From the NCBI RefSeq assembly GCF_013426735.1, contig NZ_AP023272.1:2090501-2154500 (forward strand): a stretch of 64,000 bases of DNA. The letters run 5' to 3'. Position 1 is the stretch's first letter. Each line of letters opens with the position of its first letter. Below the pieces are notes generated by a model. That model saw only the letters and a program-made list of their open reading frames with translations, was not told the origin of the DNA and ran no database searches. The stretch is from Agrobacterium vitis. GTDB taxonomy: Bacteria > Pseudomonadota > Alphaproteobacteria > Rhizobiales > Rhizobiaceae. Position numbers and translations under genes: made by a program. Shown one piece after another: positions 27,962 to 33,834 of this stretch.

Positions 27962-28356
27962 TTAATGCACTCATATGTGAAAATTAAATTTTGATTGCAA
28001 TTTTTATGTAAAGCGAACCCGTTCCGATTGATTTCGGGGCGGGTTTATTTGTATAAATTTGCAAAATGCACAATGAGAAATTATTTTCTGATTTGAAGAT
28101 AGTCTCAAGGAAACAAGATATAATTAATATTACTTATAAATCGACTTACATTTAATAATGCTTATAAAAAATTATTAATACTAGAGAGTTGGGCCAAAAA
28201 TTGGGGACAGATTTTCGGATAAATCCGATGTGTAAGCAATAAATTAAAGTATCATGCTAATTCCAACTTTTTGTACGATGCAGTAAAGTTTGTTCTTGAA
28301 TTGTTCTGAGGATGTGGCATCTAATATGTTTAGTATCTTAATGGTGGAGAAGCGAT
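27962..28356. other. 395-base AT-rich region after nrdJ
   Basis: Apart from the nrdJ terminator, no gene is seen. Composition is much more AT-rich than the nrdJ side, with runs of A and T, and marks the start of a compositionally distinct stretch. Confidence 0.5.
28016..28050 (+). terminator. terminator of nrdJ
   Basis: AACCCGTTCCGA (28016-28027) pairs with TCGGGGCGGGTT (28034-28045), twelve pairs with two wobbles, followed by TATTTG. Confidence 0.75.
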
Positions 28357-28872
28357 TTGAGCAATCTAGAGCTGAATGAATTTCACTCATTTCTTGAAGA
28401 ACTTATTGAGAAGTCCTCGCGAGGCACTCGATTCAATGCTGACAAAATTATTGAAACAATCATGTCAAAGCATCCTAGTCGTTTGGAAAAGGTTCAAAAT
28501 CAGGTGATGGTCCTCGGACTGAGAGCGCTGATCAAAAACAATAATCGCTCAAAGACCAGCAAGATAAGCGACGGCCCTGATTTGTTCGGTAACTATGGCA
28601 TCTCAAAACGCATCTCTGTTCCCTACCGAGACGAGAAAGGGGGGCTACACTGGGATCAAAAAGGACGCGATGAGCTTTCGTTTGAAGACTTGGATGAGAT
28701 CATAGCTCGGCTAGAAGATCGCGAAAAAAAACCATCGAAAAATCGGAAAAATATGGACGAAATTGTCAAAAAGGTCGCTCCATATCGTGATAAGGCAAAA
28801 ACGGTTGCTGAGGCTCTAAAAATGGCGGAACGCGATAGCGTTTTAGATCCTATCGAAACCTCACACTCTTAG
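28357..28872 (+). CDS. orphan hypothetical protein in an AT-rich stretch
   Basis: 171 residues, highly charged, with no membrane segment and no motif I recognise. Residues 1-65 look helical (FHSFLEELIEKSS), 80-120 contain a DEKGGLHWDQKGRDELSFEDLDE segment, and the C-terminal third is Lys-rich and probably coiled or disordered. The start is most likely TTG 28357, with GGAG about 8 bases upstream; the next Met is at residue 36. The gene appears less GC-rich than its neighbours and sits between nrdJ and a palindromic repeat, consistent with acquisition by transfer. No function is proposed. Confidence 0.6.
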   Translation: MSNLELNEFHSFLEELIEKSSRGTRFNADKIIETIMSKHPSRLEKVQNQVMVLGLRALIKNNNRSKTSKISDGPDLFGNYGISKRISVPYRDEKGGLHWDQKGRDELSFEDLDEIIARLEDREKKPSKNRKNMDEIVKKVAPYRDKAKTVAEALKMAERDSVLDPIETSHS

Positions 28873-28984
28873 GGCATTGGTGTGCGAGCCTGAGCAACAC
28901 GCACAAGCTTATCTGAAGGTCATTGCTGACGAACCGGAAGACCAGCAAAATGGCGGTTTGTAGAAGAACATTTCCATCTTACCT

Positions 28985-29050
28985 CTTCCCTTGCGGGAGA
29001 GGACAAAAAATCATGATCTTAGCGACCGCTACGATCATGATTTTTTAGGT
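28985..29050. repeat. REP-like palindromic element
   Basis: A small G/C hairpin (CTCTTCCC-TTGC-GGGAGAGG, 28983-29002) is followed by a perfect inverted repeat AAAAAATCATGATC (29005-29018) / GATCATGATTTTTT (29033-29046) with an internal TAGC-gacc-GCTA stem. The T and A tracts on both sides allow termination in either direction. It resembles dispersed intergenic palindromes of rhizobia, and also ends the orphan gene (plus) and the downstream end of the nucleotidyltransferase operon (minus). Confidence 0.75.
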
Positions 29051-29112
29051 GAGGGATGCACTCATTGATCCTTGAAAGATTTGAATCCGTCATCACCCAT
29101 AGGTGAGCGACT

Positions 29113-29808
29113 CTATCGTTCGTGAAAAATCTTTCCCACGGGCCGGCAATTTTCAATAGTGGGTGCCAGCACGGTGTGGCCGTCAGCGATGACGCCGTTG
29201 ACCATGGGGCAGATGAAAAGCACGCCTTTATAGCTCATGGTCTGGCGGTTGTTGATACTATGAACGGCTGCACTGAGGAATATCTGGATGTTTCGGAACA
29301 TGTATACGCCTGCGGAGGCGTTTTCCGAGATCACCTGTTTTTCCCGCGCTTCAACCACCACGCCGTCGGTCATCTTCAAATAGCTGTAGCAGTTTTCCCT
29401 TGAGGTAAAGACCGGCACGACTGCGCCGCATCCTTCCGTCGAAAACAGTGTCTCCGGGTCGTCTGGTCCGCTCGTGAACAGGATGTCGGCCAGATCGATG
29501 ATGACGGGCTCGTCTGGCGCAACGAGCGCCATTGCTGCGAGCACAGAGAACAAAGCCCCGCCGGTCAGGTCGGAGAGCGTCACGATGCGGCAGCCGGGCC
29601 ATCTCAGGCGCAGGTATTCAACAAGCTCTGCGAGGTTCGCAACCTCGCGGAGGACGAAGATGTAATCCTCTGGCCGAAGCCGGTTCGCCCACACCCTGTC
29701 ACCCAAGGCAGCGTCGATCAGCGGCTTTCCGCTGAGATCCACGAGCGGTCTAAAGCCATATTTTTGGGTCCACAAATCAGGCCCGGCAAGGGGTACGATG
29801 CATTTCAT
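29113..29808 (-). CDS. single-domain sugar-phosphate nucleotidyltransferase-like protein
   Basis: A 231-residue protein resembling each half of the neighbouring double nucleotidyltransferase: MKCIVPLAG start, RPLVDLSGKPLI, an internal VIIDLADILF where the active-site Asp loop belongs, and GVYMFRNI near the end. The canonical G-x-G-x-R-F loop and the first Lys of PKP are missing (PDLWTQKYGFRP), so it may be an inactive paralogue or act on an unusual substrate. The start is ATG 29808, just after the upstream stop; a TTG at 29817 is the alternative. It is the last gene of the accessory operon. Confidence 0.7.
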   Translation of the reverse strand: MKCIVPLAGPDLWTQKYGFRPLVDLSGKPLIDAALGDRVWANRLRPEDYIFVLREVANLAELVEYLRLRWPGCRIVTLSDLTGGALFSVLAAMALVAPDEPVIIDLADILFTSGPDDPETLFSTEGCGAVVPVFTSRENCYSYLKMTDGVVVEAREKQVISENASAGVYMFRNIQIFLSAAVHSINNRQTMSYKGVLFICPMVNGVIADGHTVLAPTIENCRPVGKIFHER

Positions 29809-29813
29809 GCTTA

Positions 29814-31298
29814 TCAAATCAGCCTAAGATAGGCCTCCAGATCGGGAGGCGTGCCTATACCGTGCATGGCGTCGGGAGCGACATGATAGACGCCGACCCT
29901 GGCTCCCTGCTTGATCAGGTAGTTGTAAACCGGGCAAACATAGAACTCGTTGTTGGACCGGTCATTGTGGGCAATCATATCGGTCGCGGCATCGATGAAA
30001 TCGCGGGCGCGCCTGAAATAATAGATGCCAACGGTCGCGTTGTCGGAAATCGCCACCTTCTCCTTTACCTCATCGACCAGGCCGTCATCGTTCAAATGAG
30101 CGAACGACCATTTCGGGTCCCGATCCTTGTCCTTGAAGCAGAGAATTGAGCCATCCAGATCGCGCTCCAGTGCATCTTGAATGTAATCCGCGCATTCGAA
30201 ATCGACGATCTGGTCGCAATTGGCAATCAATAATGGGGCATCGGGATCAAGATGTGTCCGCGCCGTCAAGACGGTGCAAGCAGCACCCTCGGTTACGAAG
30301 TTGATCGGCGAAAATGCGAGATCGCCATGAGCTTTCAAACCACTGACGACATCGGGTTCCGCATCCAGATGGTCCTGCCGGGCGATCAGGACGAAGCGCG
30401 CATGATCGAGGCGCAGATTGTCCATGACACGCTCGATCATCGTCTTGCCTTTCACATCAATGAACGGCTTTGGCTTGAGATAACCGACTTGCGCAAACCG
30501 GCTGCCAAGGCCCGCCATCGGAATGACGACCTGAACCTGCCGGGCTGGCTTGGTCATCGCGGCAACCTTGTCCCGGATCTCGTTCTGATAGAATTCGATG
30601 CGCTTGGGCGAATAGAACGAGATATAGCTGTCGGATGGAATCTCGTGTTGGACGATTTTGCCACCGGCGAGAATGACCTCGTTCAGAACCGGGGAAAGAT
30701 AGTATTTTCCACCAAACGGGTCGGCTTTCAGCAAATAATTCTGGGCAAATTCCACAAATAGACTGCCGCTTCTAAAATAATAATATCCAGCAATCGCCTT
30801 GCGGCTCAGAACGCGCTTTTCCGCCGTTTCTATGACATATCCAGACTTATCCTCACGGATATAGGACCAGCGGGGGTGTACGGAATTGAAGGTCACGACA
30901 CCGGCATCGGCCTGCGAGCGCGTAAAATCTCGTGCAATGCCCGCCAGATCCGCATCGATAATCTGGTCGCCATTGCAGATCACCAAAGGGTCGTCGTCCA
31001 CAATATGATCGACGGCCATCAGAGCGGAGCAGACAGCGCCCATGGTCGGATTGTTCAGTTTGATGACAACGGTGCTTTCGCCAGCCAGTAATTTCAAAAT
31101 TGAATCGAGACTGTATTCAAGTGCATCCTGATTAAGAACGATGAAGATGAACTTCGCGGATGCATCGCGGTTGCGGATACTGTTGACGACGAGCGAGATC
31201 ATCGGCGAACCGTCGATTTCGATCAGAGGCTTGGGGAAATGAAACTCGTCCTTTGGGAAAAGATCATCCTTCGACGCGATGGGAATAAGATATCTCAT
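29814..31298 (-). CDS. fused double nucleotidyltransferase
   Basis: 494 residues made of two homologous nucleotidyltransferase domains. Domain 1 (1-247) has IPIASKDDLFP in place of the nucleotide loop, then PKPLIEIDG, VICNGDQIIDADL (metal Asp), PRWSYI and GYYYFRSG. Domain 2 (about 252-494) repeats the plan with an intact VIPMAGLGSRF loop, KPKPFIDVKGK, LIANCDQIVDFEC, PKWSFA and GIYYFRRA. Domain 2 is therefore the likely catalytic unit, making an NDP-activated sugar or polyol from its phosphate; domain 1 may be divergent or regulatory. The start overlaps the HAD stop in ATGA. Substrate unknown. Confidence 0.78.
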   Translation of the reverse strand: MRYLIPIASKDDLFPKDEFHFPKPLIEIDGSPMISLVVNSIRNRDASAKFIFIVLNQDALEYSLDSILKLLAGESTVVIKLNNPTMGAVCSALMAVDHIVDDDPLVICNGDQIIDADLAGIARDFTRSQADAGVVTFNSVHPRWSYIREDKSGYVIETAEKRVLSRKAIAGYYYFRSGSLFVEFAQNYLLKADPFGGKYYLSPVLNEVILAGGKIVQHEIPSDSYISFYSPKRIEFYQNEIRDKVAAMTKPARQVQVVIPMAGLGSRFAQVGYLKPKPFIDVKGKTMIERVMDNLRLDHARFVLIARQDHLDAEPDVVSGLKAHGDLAFSPINFVTEGAACTVLTARTHLDPDAPLLIANCDQIVDFECADYIQDALERDLDGSILCFKDKDRDPKWSFAHLNDDGLVDEVKEKVAISDNATVGIYYFRRARDFIDAATDMIAHNDRSNNEFYVCPVYNYLIKQGARVGVYHVAPDAMHGIGTPPDLEAYLRLI

Positions 31299-31924
31299 GT
31301 GAGGGCCGACTCGATCTTGGTGATTTCGTTCATGATACGCTCATAGGTGACGTCGTTGGTCGATCCCACCACCAGGACATGGGCGCCTGAGGAGCGGGCG
31401 GCCTGTATGCCGTGATCGTTATCTTCCAGGATCAGGCATTCCTCCGGCTGCAATTGCAGTCGATCGATTGCCGTCAGGTAGATTTCGGGATCAGGCTTCG
31501 CCTTGCCGACATCCTGATTGGATAGAAAGAAATCCAGGTATTTCAACAGGTCAGCCTGGCGCATCATCGCTTCTACGCTCGACCTGACGGAGTTTGAGCA
31601 GACGACGATATGCTTTCCCTCCCGCTTCAGGCGCGCGAGGGCGTATTCGTGATGAAAGACCGGTTGGCATTTTTCGACGATGACCTGATAGGTCATCTTC
31701 TGTTTGAGCGTGTTGAGAAAATCGTGCAGCCTTGGCGGCAATCCCCGCGTCTTGGTCAGCATTTCCAGTTTTTTGCGTGTTGGCAGGCCGTCATAGACGG
31801 CGAGATGTTCGGTGCGGCTGATATTGAGCCCGAGAAGCGCCAGCGCGTCATTCAGCGTCTCGTAATGCCATTCCTTGGCATCAATCAGAACGCCGTCCAT
31901 GTCGAAAAGCACTGCCTTGATCAT
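31295..31924 (-). CDS. HAD-superfamily phosphatase/phosphomutase-like protein
   Basis: A 209-residue Rossmannoid hydrolase: motif I DMDGVLIDAKEWH (nucleophile Asp near residue 8, general acid Asp near 10), motif II VVCSNSVRSS, motif III Lys in GKAKPDPEIY and motif IV LILEDNDHGIQAA. The cap region (15-85) is alpha-helical, as in the beta-phosphoglucomutase/phosphatase subfamily. Placed between a phosphodiesterase-like gene and nucleotidyltransferases, it could dephosphorylate or isomerise the phosphate that is later activated. AGGA precedes the ATG at 31924. Confidence 0.85.
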   Translation of the reverse strand: MIKAVLFDMDGVLIDAKEWHYETLNDALALLGLNISRTEHLAVYDGLPTRKKLEMLTKTRGLPPRLHDFLNTLKQKMTYQVIVEKCQPVFHHEYALARLKREGKHIVVCSNSVRSSVEAMMRQADLLKYLDFFLSNQDVGKAKPDPEIYLTAIDRLQLQPEECLILEDNDHGIQAARSSGAHVLVVGSTNDVTYERIMNEITKIESALT

Positions 31925-31954
31925 AATGTCCTGTCCGTCTGGTTCATGGCTGGC

Positions 31955-32575
31955 TTATCCCCATTTCTCGGCGGCGAGGTGCGGCAAGTCGGTGCAGATT
32001 GAGATGTCGTCACCTGTCAGATCACCCCAAACATCCCATGCGGCGGCATGATCACGCCCGTGTAGTTCTGGAGAGACGAGCGCCACTTTCTTGCCGGCAT
32101 CGAGATGCTTCTGGATGACATCTGAAGTGATCCAGTCAGAATAGAAGGCATCCAGCCACACGCCTTGGGCCTTGTCATAAAAGGGAGGCAGCGGTTCGAG
32201 TTCGGAATGGCGGGTATAGGTTATAAAGCCATTATTGAGATAGCCGATGGCATCAGGAACAGCCATATCGAAGCAGAACAGATCGGTTATCCCGGCACCC
32301 TCCAACGAGGCGCGGAGCGCCTTGTGCAGGCCGTCTGCCTTGATGTTCATGGCAATCGTGCCTGATCCGGCATAGCTGTTGTGCAGATCCAGAAAATAGT
32401 CGAGATCCATCACTTGGTCGCCGACGGGCATGTCATGCGCGATTTTCAGCACGCCATTCTGGTCGCGCGTGTCCGTCTCGACCCCGAATCCATTTTCAAA
32501 GGCACGCCTGAAAGCCGTTTCACTGTTTTTTTCGACAGGTTCCAGCCACCAGCCCCTGTGCGCGAGAATTTTCAT
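31955..32575 (-). CDS. glycerophosphodiester phosphodiesterase-like protein
   Basis: A 206-residue TIM-barrel-type protein. It starts MKILAHRGWWLEP (first catalytic His-Arg), followed by a conserved Asn-Ser-Glu-x-Ala-Phe segment, a GFGVETDTRD acidic pair for metal binding and IAHDMPVGD (second His). This order is that of the GDPD/PI-PLC superfamily, though the protein is shorter than typical GlpQ or UgpQ (about 240+). No signal peptide, so cytoplasmic. ATG 32575 has GGAAAGAG upstream; ATG 32587 lacks one. It could cleave a glycerol- or polyol-phosphodiester in the same pathway. Confidence 0.78.
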   Translation of the reverse strand: MKILAHRGWWLEPVEKNSETAFRRAFENGFGVETDTRDQNGVLKIAHDMPVGDQVMDLDYFLDLHNSYAGSGTIAMNIKADGLHKALRASLEGAGITDLFCFDMAVPDAIGYLNNGFITYTRHSELEPLPPFYDKAQGVWLDAFYSDWITSDVIQKHLDAGKKVALVSPELHGRDHAAAWDVWGDLTGDDISICTDLPHLAAEKWG

Positions 32576-32637
32576 CGCTCTTTCCATTCAAACGTTGCGA
32601 AATAGATGCTTCACCGGCCACTGCAAATTCCTGGGAA

Positions 32638-33834
32638 TTAGCCGGGGTTGAATTGAGGAAAGCTCTTCCTGTCGATGTGATAGACGGCAAGATAGTTGTT
32701 CTCTCGGAAAAAGTTCGGGTTCTGGGTATAGGCAAAGGCATTCGTCCATCTCATTGGATGGATCTGTTGATGCACCTTGGAGACAATCCCGGCGTTGCAG
32801 AATTCCATCGCATGGGCGATGCCTTCGACCATCGTGAACGAGAAACCACCGTAAAGAGCCATGTAGAACTGGTAGGTGATATGGTCGAATACGCTGTGGA
32901 CGAGCCGTTCCACAAATTGCAGGCTGGTGTCCCAGCCAATCCACTCCAGAAAGCCCGGTATGCTCTTGCCCGAATAGACCGGAATATCCCACCACCAGGT
33001 ATAGATGCCCCAATTGCCGGAAATGGCCTGAATTTTTTCATGATCGACCGCCGGTGCCAGCATGATGGACGAGGCGTGCATGATCTGCCTTTCGGCCGAG
33101 TGGTTTGCAGTCAGAGTACCGCCGTACCAGCGTGCTGCGGAAACAACGCTTGCGGCGGCCTCGGTCCAGCCCGTTTTATTGAGAATGAAGGTCTCGGCAT
33201 CGACGCACAGGAGATAGTCGTAAAGCTTATGGGCGAGAGAAAGCGCCAGGAATTTCTTGACCGTCGGCCAGGTTCTACCCTCAGCGACGACCGACAGCGC
33301 ACTGCCTGAGAAATAATCCGACAGCACGATGGACGAGTAGTTCAGGAAAGGGGATGCCTGATGCATCTCTCTGAACTGCAGGCGATCGGCATCGGTGGAG
33401 AAGACGAAAATGATGTCGTAGTCGGCACCAATGCTCTGAAACAGCAGGTTGATGCCATAGATGAAATAGGCGTCGTGAATGGGCACGATAAGAGCGGTTC
33501 TGTTCCGCGGCTTCCGTGCCTCGCCGCATTCCGTCAAGAGATGAACGCCACGCTCTCCCGGCAGACGGAACTGTCCCTCCATTTCGATGCGTCCGTCGAT
33601 AGACCTTACGGTATCGAATCGCGTGGTGACGGCAGCGTTCTGGTTCAGAAACTCGACCGCCCCGCCTTTCACGCGCCAGGAGTTTTCATTGGTATGGGAA
33701 TATCCGCGCAGCCAACCGCCGCTCTCGAAGGATATCTGCGATGCAAAAACCTGTTCGGCGCCAGCTTTACCGAAGGTCCACACACGCTCCTTCATCAGTC
33801 GCTCAAGCGACAAATCATCAAGGCCGATCGTCAT
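32638..33834 (-). CDS. putative glycosyltransferase with N-terminal beta-rich domain
   Basis: 398 residues. Residues 1-105 form a beta-rich module with the pattern GYSHTNENSW ... GAVEFLN ... TTRF that I associate, from memory, with the N-terminus of other rhizobial glycan-related proteins. Residues 110-398 look like a GT-A fold transferase: RTALIVPIHDAYF at the start of the Rossmann half, YDYLLCVDAETFI (a D-x-E in the position of DxD) and a conserved aromatic region near NWGIYTWWWD. Start ATG 33834 has AGGAG 7 bases upstream. It is the first gene of the five-gene minus-strand operon. Transferase activity is inferred, not certain. Confidence 0.6.
   Translation of the reverse strand: MTIGLDDLSLERLMKERVWTFGKAGAEQVFASQISFESGGWLRGYSHTNENSWRVKGGAVEFLNQNAAVTTRFDTVRSIDGRIEMEGQFRLPGERGVHLLTECGEARKPRNRTALIVPIHDAYFIYGINLLFQSIGADYDIIFVFSTDADRLQFREMHQASPFLNYSSIVLSDYFSGSALSVVAEGRTWPTVKKFLALSLAHKLYDYLLCVDAETFILNKTGWTEAAASVVSAARWYGGTLTANHSAERQIMHASSIMLAPAVDHEKIQAISGNWGIYTWWWDIPVYSGKSIPGFLEWIGWDTSLQFVERLVHSVFDHITYQFYMALYGGFSFTMVEGIAHAMEFCNAGIVSKVHQQIHPMRWTNAFAYTQNPNFFRENNYLAVYHIDRKSFPQFNPG

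Follow-up and report, generated by a model that had tools for sequence, protein, structure and literature searches.

A widespread gene cassette of Agrobacterium vitis with a single intact nucleotidyltransferase site as a candidate source of a surface-glycan precursor

Agrobacterium vitis is a grapevine-associated bacterium. A stretch of 64,000 nucleotides of one of its genomes (5.88 Mb), hereafter the window, carries on its minus strand, between positions 29113 and 33834, five tightly packed open reading frames (ORFs) for a glycosyltransferase (GT)-like protein (GT5), a protein resembling glycerophosphodiester phosphodiesterases (GDPDs), a HAD protein and two proteins with nucleotidyltransferase (NT) modules, NT2 and NT1. 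What might such a set of enzymes make? In general terms, it is very probably a cassette for a surface-glycan precursor. The ORF calls agree with a preliminary description of this DNA in that the minus-strand genes are closely spaced or overlap at ATGA; its HAD protein, GDPD-like barrel and GT-like protein with a beta-rich N-terminus were likewise recovered by Pfam, profile and fold comparisons. The features are as follows.

32638..33834, minus strand: GT5, a 398-amino-acid transferase with an N-terminal beta-barrel module and a GT-A domain (ATG at 33834)
31955..32587, minus strand: GDPD-like TIM-barrel protein (family start probably the ATG at 32575)
31295..31924, minus strand: HAD protein of the beta-phosphoglucomutase/sugar-phosphatase group (PF13419, TIGR02009, 3kbb)
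30570..31298, minus strand: NTa, the first half of NT2 (boundaries from profiles and alignment)
29814..30551, minus strand: NTb, the second half of NT2 (start approximate; alignment and profile match to 4evw)
29113..29817, minus strand: NT1, a degenerate NT module (probable ATG at 29808; alignment and profile match to 4evw)
29005..29046, no strand assigned: near-perfect palindrome with an A/T run, 3' of NT1, a probable (bidirectional) terminator

The GDPD-like, HAD and NT1 proteins have 206-210, 209 and 231-234 amino acids, respectively, the ranges depending on the start chosen, while NTa and NTb are fused in the 494 amino acids of NT2. NT2 and HAD overlap at 31295-31298, NT1 likely begins a few bases past the NT2 stop, and gaps of 30 and 50-62 nucleotides separate GDPD from HAD and GT from GDPD, respectively. 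A Pfam scan of the window proteins at E 0.1 found NTP_transferase/MobA-like domains in two stretches of the 494-amino-acid protein and HAD_2 in the 209-amino-acid protein. NT1, GDPD-like and GT-like proteins gave no Pfam match at that threshold and were assigned through profile, fold or homology to NT2.

Profile hidden Markov models (HMMs) built from the cassette genes were run on 55 loci and then on 17 more, 72 in total (locus and genome numbers, L and G, are our own). Every locus had been fetched through one cassette gene, which is therefore present by construction: NT2 for L006-L027, GDPD for L050-L064, L118-L127, L172-L175 and L188, and HAD for the plasmid and cyanophage loci, for which 16 of 24 plasmid records and two of 11 phage records were inspected. 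GDPD, HAD, NTa and NTb were all present in 58 of the 72 loci (45/55 and 13/17); near-duplicates are counted among the 72, for example L006-L008 with the window, L009/L050, L013/L052 and L137/L188. These loci come from Alphaproteobacteria, Bacteroidota, Pseudomonas plasmids and one viral contig; at least one core gene is missing in the other 14 (L054, L122-L127, L137-L139, L173-L175 and L188). Because a search with one gene leads to loci where the remaining ones adjoin it, the gene set is no chance neighbourhood. Nor is the combination a one-off, for its four-gene core is widespread, and the idea that it is unique to this strain was rejected upon finding homologous sets in other genomes. Holders include Azospirillum, Asticcacaulis, Hyphomicrobium, Pedobacter, Polaribacter, P. 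aeruginosa, P. alcaligenes, Ruegeria and Tropicibacter, and an Enterobacteriaceae plasmid has the cassette with no NTa detected. Besides the order of the window kind, GDPD-HAD-NTa-NTb-NT1, the orders NTb-GDPD-HAD-NTa-cupin, GDPD-HAD-NTa-cupin-NTb and GDPD-HAD-NTa-NTb-cupin were found.

Smaller versions occur in viruses. The viral contigs L173 and L174 contain GDPD-HAD-NTb, and NTa, NT1 and cupin were not detected there by HMM. A related HAD gene is found in 11 Synechococcus phage records; in two of these phages (L138 and L139) a HAD-NTb fusion and a second HAD lie inside a phage glycosyltransferase cluster, with a mini GDPD-like gene of about 150 amino acids near the fusion (by annotation in one and by eye in the other). 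Because L173, L174 and the phage loci carry these genes, the distribution suggests a minimal triad, GDPD-HAD-NTb, that was later joined by the pair of NTa and either NT1 or a cupin. A second GDPD-like subfamily, whose profile match starts only at about residue 14-29, was also noticed (L122-L125 and L127). Its genes lie near two tandem NTb-like modules and GT2/GtrA genes and, at some of these loci, near class II aldolase- and kinase/isomerase-like genes (all by eye), perhaps as part of a parallel pathway.

The three related NT modules, two of them fused, were described correctly at first, but they are not three complete nucleotidyltransferases, because in the alignments only NTb keeps the R/K/D active site. 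NTb retains R267, K277 and D362 plus E413-K414, and the G, G, R, K and D positions are invariant in 14 of 14 sequences, with Ser replaced by Lys in one row (L021). With its GxG(S/T)R loop, PKP lysine and metal Asp, it has the features of an NTP_transferase/MobA-like enzyme, and a Pfam match lies over this half of NT2, which also gives a profile match to 4evw with an E of 1.1e-26. NTa lacks the GxGSR arginine in 14/14 sequences and retains PKP, NGDQ and Asp. In NT1, the GxGSR loop is missing in all 13 sequences, PKP is absent and the lysine position is occupied by Arg in ten and Lys in three, while DL(A/G)D and EKxVIS..ASAG.Y are retained; 4evw was the sole match of its profile among PDB sequences (E 1.9e-9). 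A reading as three complete enzymes was rejected on these losses, the missing arginine of NTa and the missing loop and PKP of NT1.

NT1 and the cupin exclude each other. Among 55 complete loci, NT1 is found in 34 and a cupin in 21, with no locus having both and none having neither; after dereplication at 95% identity, the counts are 22 and 21. Three loci had been set aside before counting: L022, where the contig ends within NTb and neither gene was seen; L184, with a decayed NTa (28-bit match), a broken GDPD and neither gene detected; and L141, with broken GDPD and NTb and a cupin present. In 55/55 loci, whichever of NT1 and cupin is present shares its strand with a core gene and lies at most 70 nucleotides from it. 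The cupin is a small protein of the metal type (about 105 amino acids) with an H-x-H-x4-E set invariant in 15/15 sequences. Within this set of loci the exclusivity is firm.

The number of swaps is not, because a tree with all NT1 loci in one clade, 11.2 log units worse than the free tree, just escapes rejection by the approximately unbiased (AU) test (p = 0.051). That result at the 5% level, together with the fact that NT1 and the cupin are unrelated proteins, leaves some room, a little short of an even chance, for the view that the two are not interchangeable and mark two lineages with differing end products. Against it, L020 and L027 have NT modules fused as in NT1 loci, yet a cupin occupies the gene position of NT1, and both free trees nest them among NT1 loci, albeit at differing places (beside L021 in one and L140 in the other); WavE-type neighbours, moreover, accompany both kinds of loci. 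A renewed replacement of NT1 by the cupin in L020 and L027 would be the weak point of the interchange, as it depends on trees whose rival survives the same test. The exclusivity offers a direct genetic test of non-orthologous replacement, in which a relic of an enzyme fold is set against a cupin.

The GDPD-like protein has the TIM-barrel fold of GDPDs along its full length. H10, R11, E37, D39, H51 and K83, which correspond to the HR(G), ExD and HD motifs and a later Lys, are invariant in 46 of 46 members, and hhalign pairs them with the residues of ordinary GDPDs. Asn81 is also found in 46/46 members, whereas the same column holds Glu in 21 and Asp in three of 24 ordinary GDPDs; this column is that of the third metal ligand, the Glu (Asp) of the GDPD ExK motif. 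Elsewhere the barrel bears strong family-specific motifs. The window protein gave no PF03009 match, six of the 46 family members did (best E 0.0018), and a search at E 1e-3 gave 1298 matches, the weakest of which may include ordinary GDPDs; none of the 120 listed had a precomputed Pfam domain. The HAD protein matches PF13419 with 113.8 bits, has the DxDG motif as FDMDGV and has 3kbb as its top-scoring solved chain; its scores for TIGR02009 (120.1 bits) and for the beta-phosphoglucomutase equivalog TIGR01990 (90.6 bits) are under the cut-offs of 153.35 and 189.4, respectively.

GT5, for which 21 homologues were found at E 1e-3, comprises a beta-barrel at about residues 9-103 and a GT-A domain at about 110-398. 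Its AF2 model (pLDDT 91, pTM 0.90) matches GT-A proteins in fold comparison. The window protein has no Pfam match, and among 20 members there were three single-member matches only, the best with an E of 0.14. Sugar-1-phosphate transferases (GlcNAc-1-phosphotransferase and CpsY) are the top VIA-align rows for the model, although their sequence signature is absent in GT5; such transferases bear the name Stealth. A Stealth search of 115 genomes of the class gave no match, and was uninformative since 14 controls were likewise silent. The N-terminal beta-barrel of about 90 residues is also found in other Rhizobiaceae proteins and resembles protease-inhibitor barrels in fold.

The neighbours of the cassette are often transferases and transporters (partly identified by eye), and the GT, WavE, flippase, transporter and ligase genes among them support the earlier suggestion of an activated building block for a surface glycan. 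WavE-type proteins (PF07507), which belong to a family different from the small one of GT5, are the commonest recognised neighbours in other genomes. Pfam confirmed them at L023, L024 and L056, and a WavE HMM was positive in 12/55 and 5/17 loci, where five of the 12 match by construction, the model having been seeded with L023, L056, L136, L137 and L140, and where one of the five, L188, looks like the same plasmid as L137. The WavE name is independent of the HMM in seven plasmid records (L136, L137, L140, L179, L182, L183 and L186). Within Rhizobiaceae, WavE is rare, occurring in three of 151 genomes and lying at the cassette in one of the three. Flippases were recognised partly by annotation and partly by eye, GT41 enzymes at several loci, and ABC transporters adjoin the cassette, with an O-antigen ligase at one such locus.

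Two other contexts were observed. In L011 (by Pfam) and L053 (by eye), the cassette is accompanied by a GT41 enzyme and flanked by ALTTAQ-repeat proteins, one with 24 such stretches, which suggests glycosylation of a repetitive protein; an ALTTAQ protein is also encoded at another place in the window genome (C1:1715111-1716613). On the Rhizobium plasmids L176 and L185 (L51/94 and R. rhododendri), genes with the annotations FGGY kinase, glycerol-3-phosphate dehydrogenase, triose-phosphate isomerase and RpiB precede the cassette and look to us like an erythritol-type catabolic locus, possibly by coincidence.

What we infer for the substrates, the order of the reactions, the product and the acceptor is as follows. 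NTb would activate a sugar or polyol that bears a phosphate, giving NDP-X (NDP, nucleoside diphosphate), and the HAD protein, as either a mutase or a phosphatase, together with the GDPD-like phosphodiesterase would shape or clear a phosphate ester before or around this activation. NTa and NT1, or the cupin in other lineages, would form an accessory unit acting on the same substrate rather than a complete nucleotidyltransferase. GT5 would then transfer either X itself or X-phosphate to an acceptor on the cell surface; if so, the completed glycan would probably bear a decoration that is phosphodiester-linked or derived from phosphate, a theme proposed because of the GDPD site and the fold neighbours of GT5. 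We give an even chance to the proposal that the cassette makes a phosphate-bearing, NDP-activated unit transferred by GT5. Several points weigh against it: for none of these enzymes is a substrate known; the Asn in place of a GDPD metal ligand could mean altered chemistry; Foldseek places glycogenin first for GT5, with no phosphotransferase among the best 50, and Pfam gave neither Stealth nor any other convincing match for 20 members of the GT5 family; a search of the genome that holds the window recovered no WavE; and the cassettes of L013 and L014 are without obvious glycan neighbours. Rather tentatively, the cassette may make an undescribed class of activated, phosphate-diester-bearing glycan unit: it would be a widespread mobile set with one catalytic NT and an arginine-less NT partner, and the helper of this partner would be one of two unrelated proteins that exclude each other, either a metal cupin or a degenerate third NT that replaced the cupin.

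An ordinary NDP-sugar cassette, with the GDPD barrel recruited to a non-phosphodiesterase step, as isomerase, lyase or cyclic-phosphate hydrolase, and with a HAD protein that acts as a beta-phosphomutase, would account for the group to which the HAD protein belongs, the Asn at the metal site, the family-specific motifs of the barrel and the rml-like sugar genes that adjoin the cassette in L018 and L026 (by eye); we consider it unlikely, and the full conservation of the histidines and the acid pair of the GDPD catalytic site speaks against it. More doubtful still is a glycerol-type route, in which the GDPD-like protein frees the phosphate of glycerol or a related polyol from a diester, the HAD protein removes or shifts the phosphate group and NTb produces a CDP- or NDP-polyol: it is favoured by the GDPD fold with its conserved catalytic residues and by related cytidylyltransferases that use phosphoglycerate, phosphocholine and phosphoglutamine (PMC12275187), but it sits poorly with the invariant Asn and the separate motifs of the barrel, and CDP-glycerol or CDP-glycerate would presumably not need four conserved genes plus a cupin or NT1.

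The gene set appears to move. Three A. vitis records have contigs that are colinear with the window (93-96% nucleotide identity) and carry the cassette at the same place, with a variable 1.0-1.4 kb between NT1 and nrdJ. The AT-rich stretch by nrdJ (27962-29112) is thus a variable interval; it contains the orphan ORF reported earlier (28357-28872, GC 0.434), around which the records differ. The palindrome is also real: its arms of 20 nucleotides are 95% complementary, it lies about 67 nucleotides past the NT1 stop, and A. vitis L007 has a similar copy past its own NT1 (85% over 41 nucleotides). Among 394 genomes of the family, 20 gave a match at E 1e-3, 19 of them across nearly the whole protein, and two of the six same-genus genomes seen in that listing had one. 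In one of these, G289, nrdJ and an araC-like gene (95% identical) enclose 4.9 kb of other genes, and the five-gene unit is at another place; in four other same-genus genomes no cassette was seen, and nrdJ and araC are 109 kb apart in one and on separate contigs in three. The unit is thus not a housekeeping set conserved here in all relatives. Because G289 has other genes at the site and the unit elsewhere, mobility is inferred, and together with the patchy distribution this supports the acquisition first thought possible; acquisition or relocation into a variable nrdJ-araC interval would fit. The low GC once noted is mild (0.526-0.569 for the five genes versus 0.593 +/- 0.021 in the 32 longest non-overlapping window ORFs above 250 amino acids) and barely evidence of acquisition, as GC at third codon positions is ordinary (0.636-0.705 versus 0.676 +/- 0.044). 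Recent acquisition argued from GC was rejected for this reason, the site comparison being the better evidence.

The same genome has a second, diverged cassette (L005:10983-14500, GC 0.443), whose identities to that of the window are 42% for GDPD, 59% for HAD, 38% for NT1 and 46% for NT2. Its region (L005:3080-14500) corresponds to G000:C1 at about 2.565-2.577 Mb and also holds GT2, HAD-long and sulfotransferase-like genes and one for a 736-amino-acid protein without assigned function, with transposase- and phage-like genes further out (by eye); this gene group is also found in G289 (L051).

The cassette is spread over plant-associated bacteria, Pseudomonas plasmids, Bacteroidota and, in part, cyanophages, and knowledge of its substrate would allow an unassigned phosphate of a sugar or polyol to be predicted for many surface glycans. 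Several known systems resemble it. In the D-glycero-D-manno-heptose pathway, HddC works with a phosphatase and a kinase, and the logic of an NT with a HAD phosphatase is common to both. An HddC model and two solved proteins of the heptose pathway also match, if weakly. The cassette differs in that it has no kinase or isomerase, its HAD protein belongs to the beta-phosphoglucomutase group, and the GDPD and the cupin/NT1 are without a counterpart in the pathway. The phosphoglycerate cytidylyltransferase CpgD and IMPCT share by motif and spacing an R, K and D pattern like R267/K277/D362 of NTb, but are single proteins for lipid or solute synthesis, with no such cassette mentioned in the portion of the source consulted (PMC12275187). 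The CDP-6-D-glucitol pair HS5.18/HS5.17 of C. jejuni HS:5 and Mnp1/Mnp2 of S. pneumoniae likewise include a dedicated NT, encoded in a capsule locus, that activates a phospho-sugar, fructose-6-phosphate, through a phosphate that is not anomeric; in these systems the NT is paired with an NAD(P)-dependent oxidoreductase, and the excerpt at hand mentions no GDPD, HAD, second NT or cupin partner (PMC10918830). A literature search, with most subscription journals outside its coverage, found no characterised five-gene order, cassette composition or NT1/cupin exclusivity. Cassettes for activated building blocks are a known kind, and what appears to be new in this one, as read from its genes, is the composition and the mutual exclusion of NT1 and cupin.

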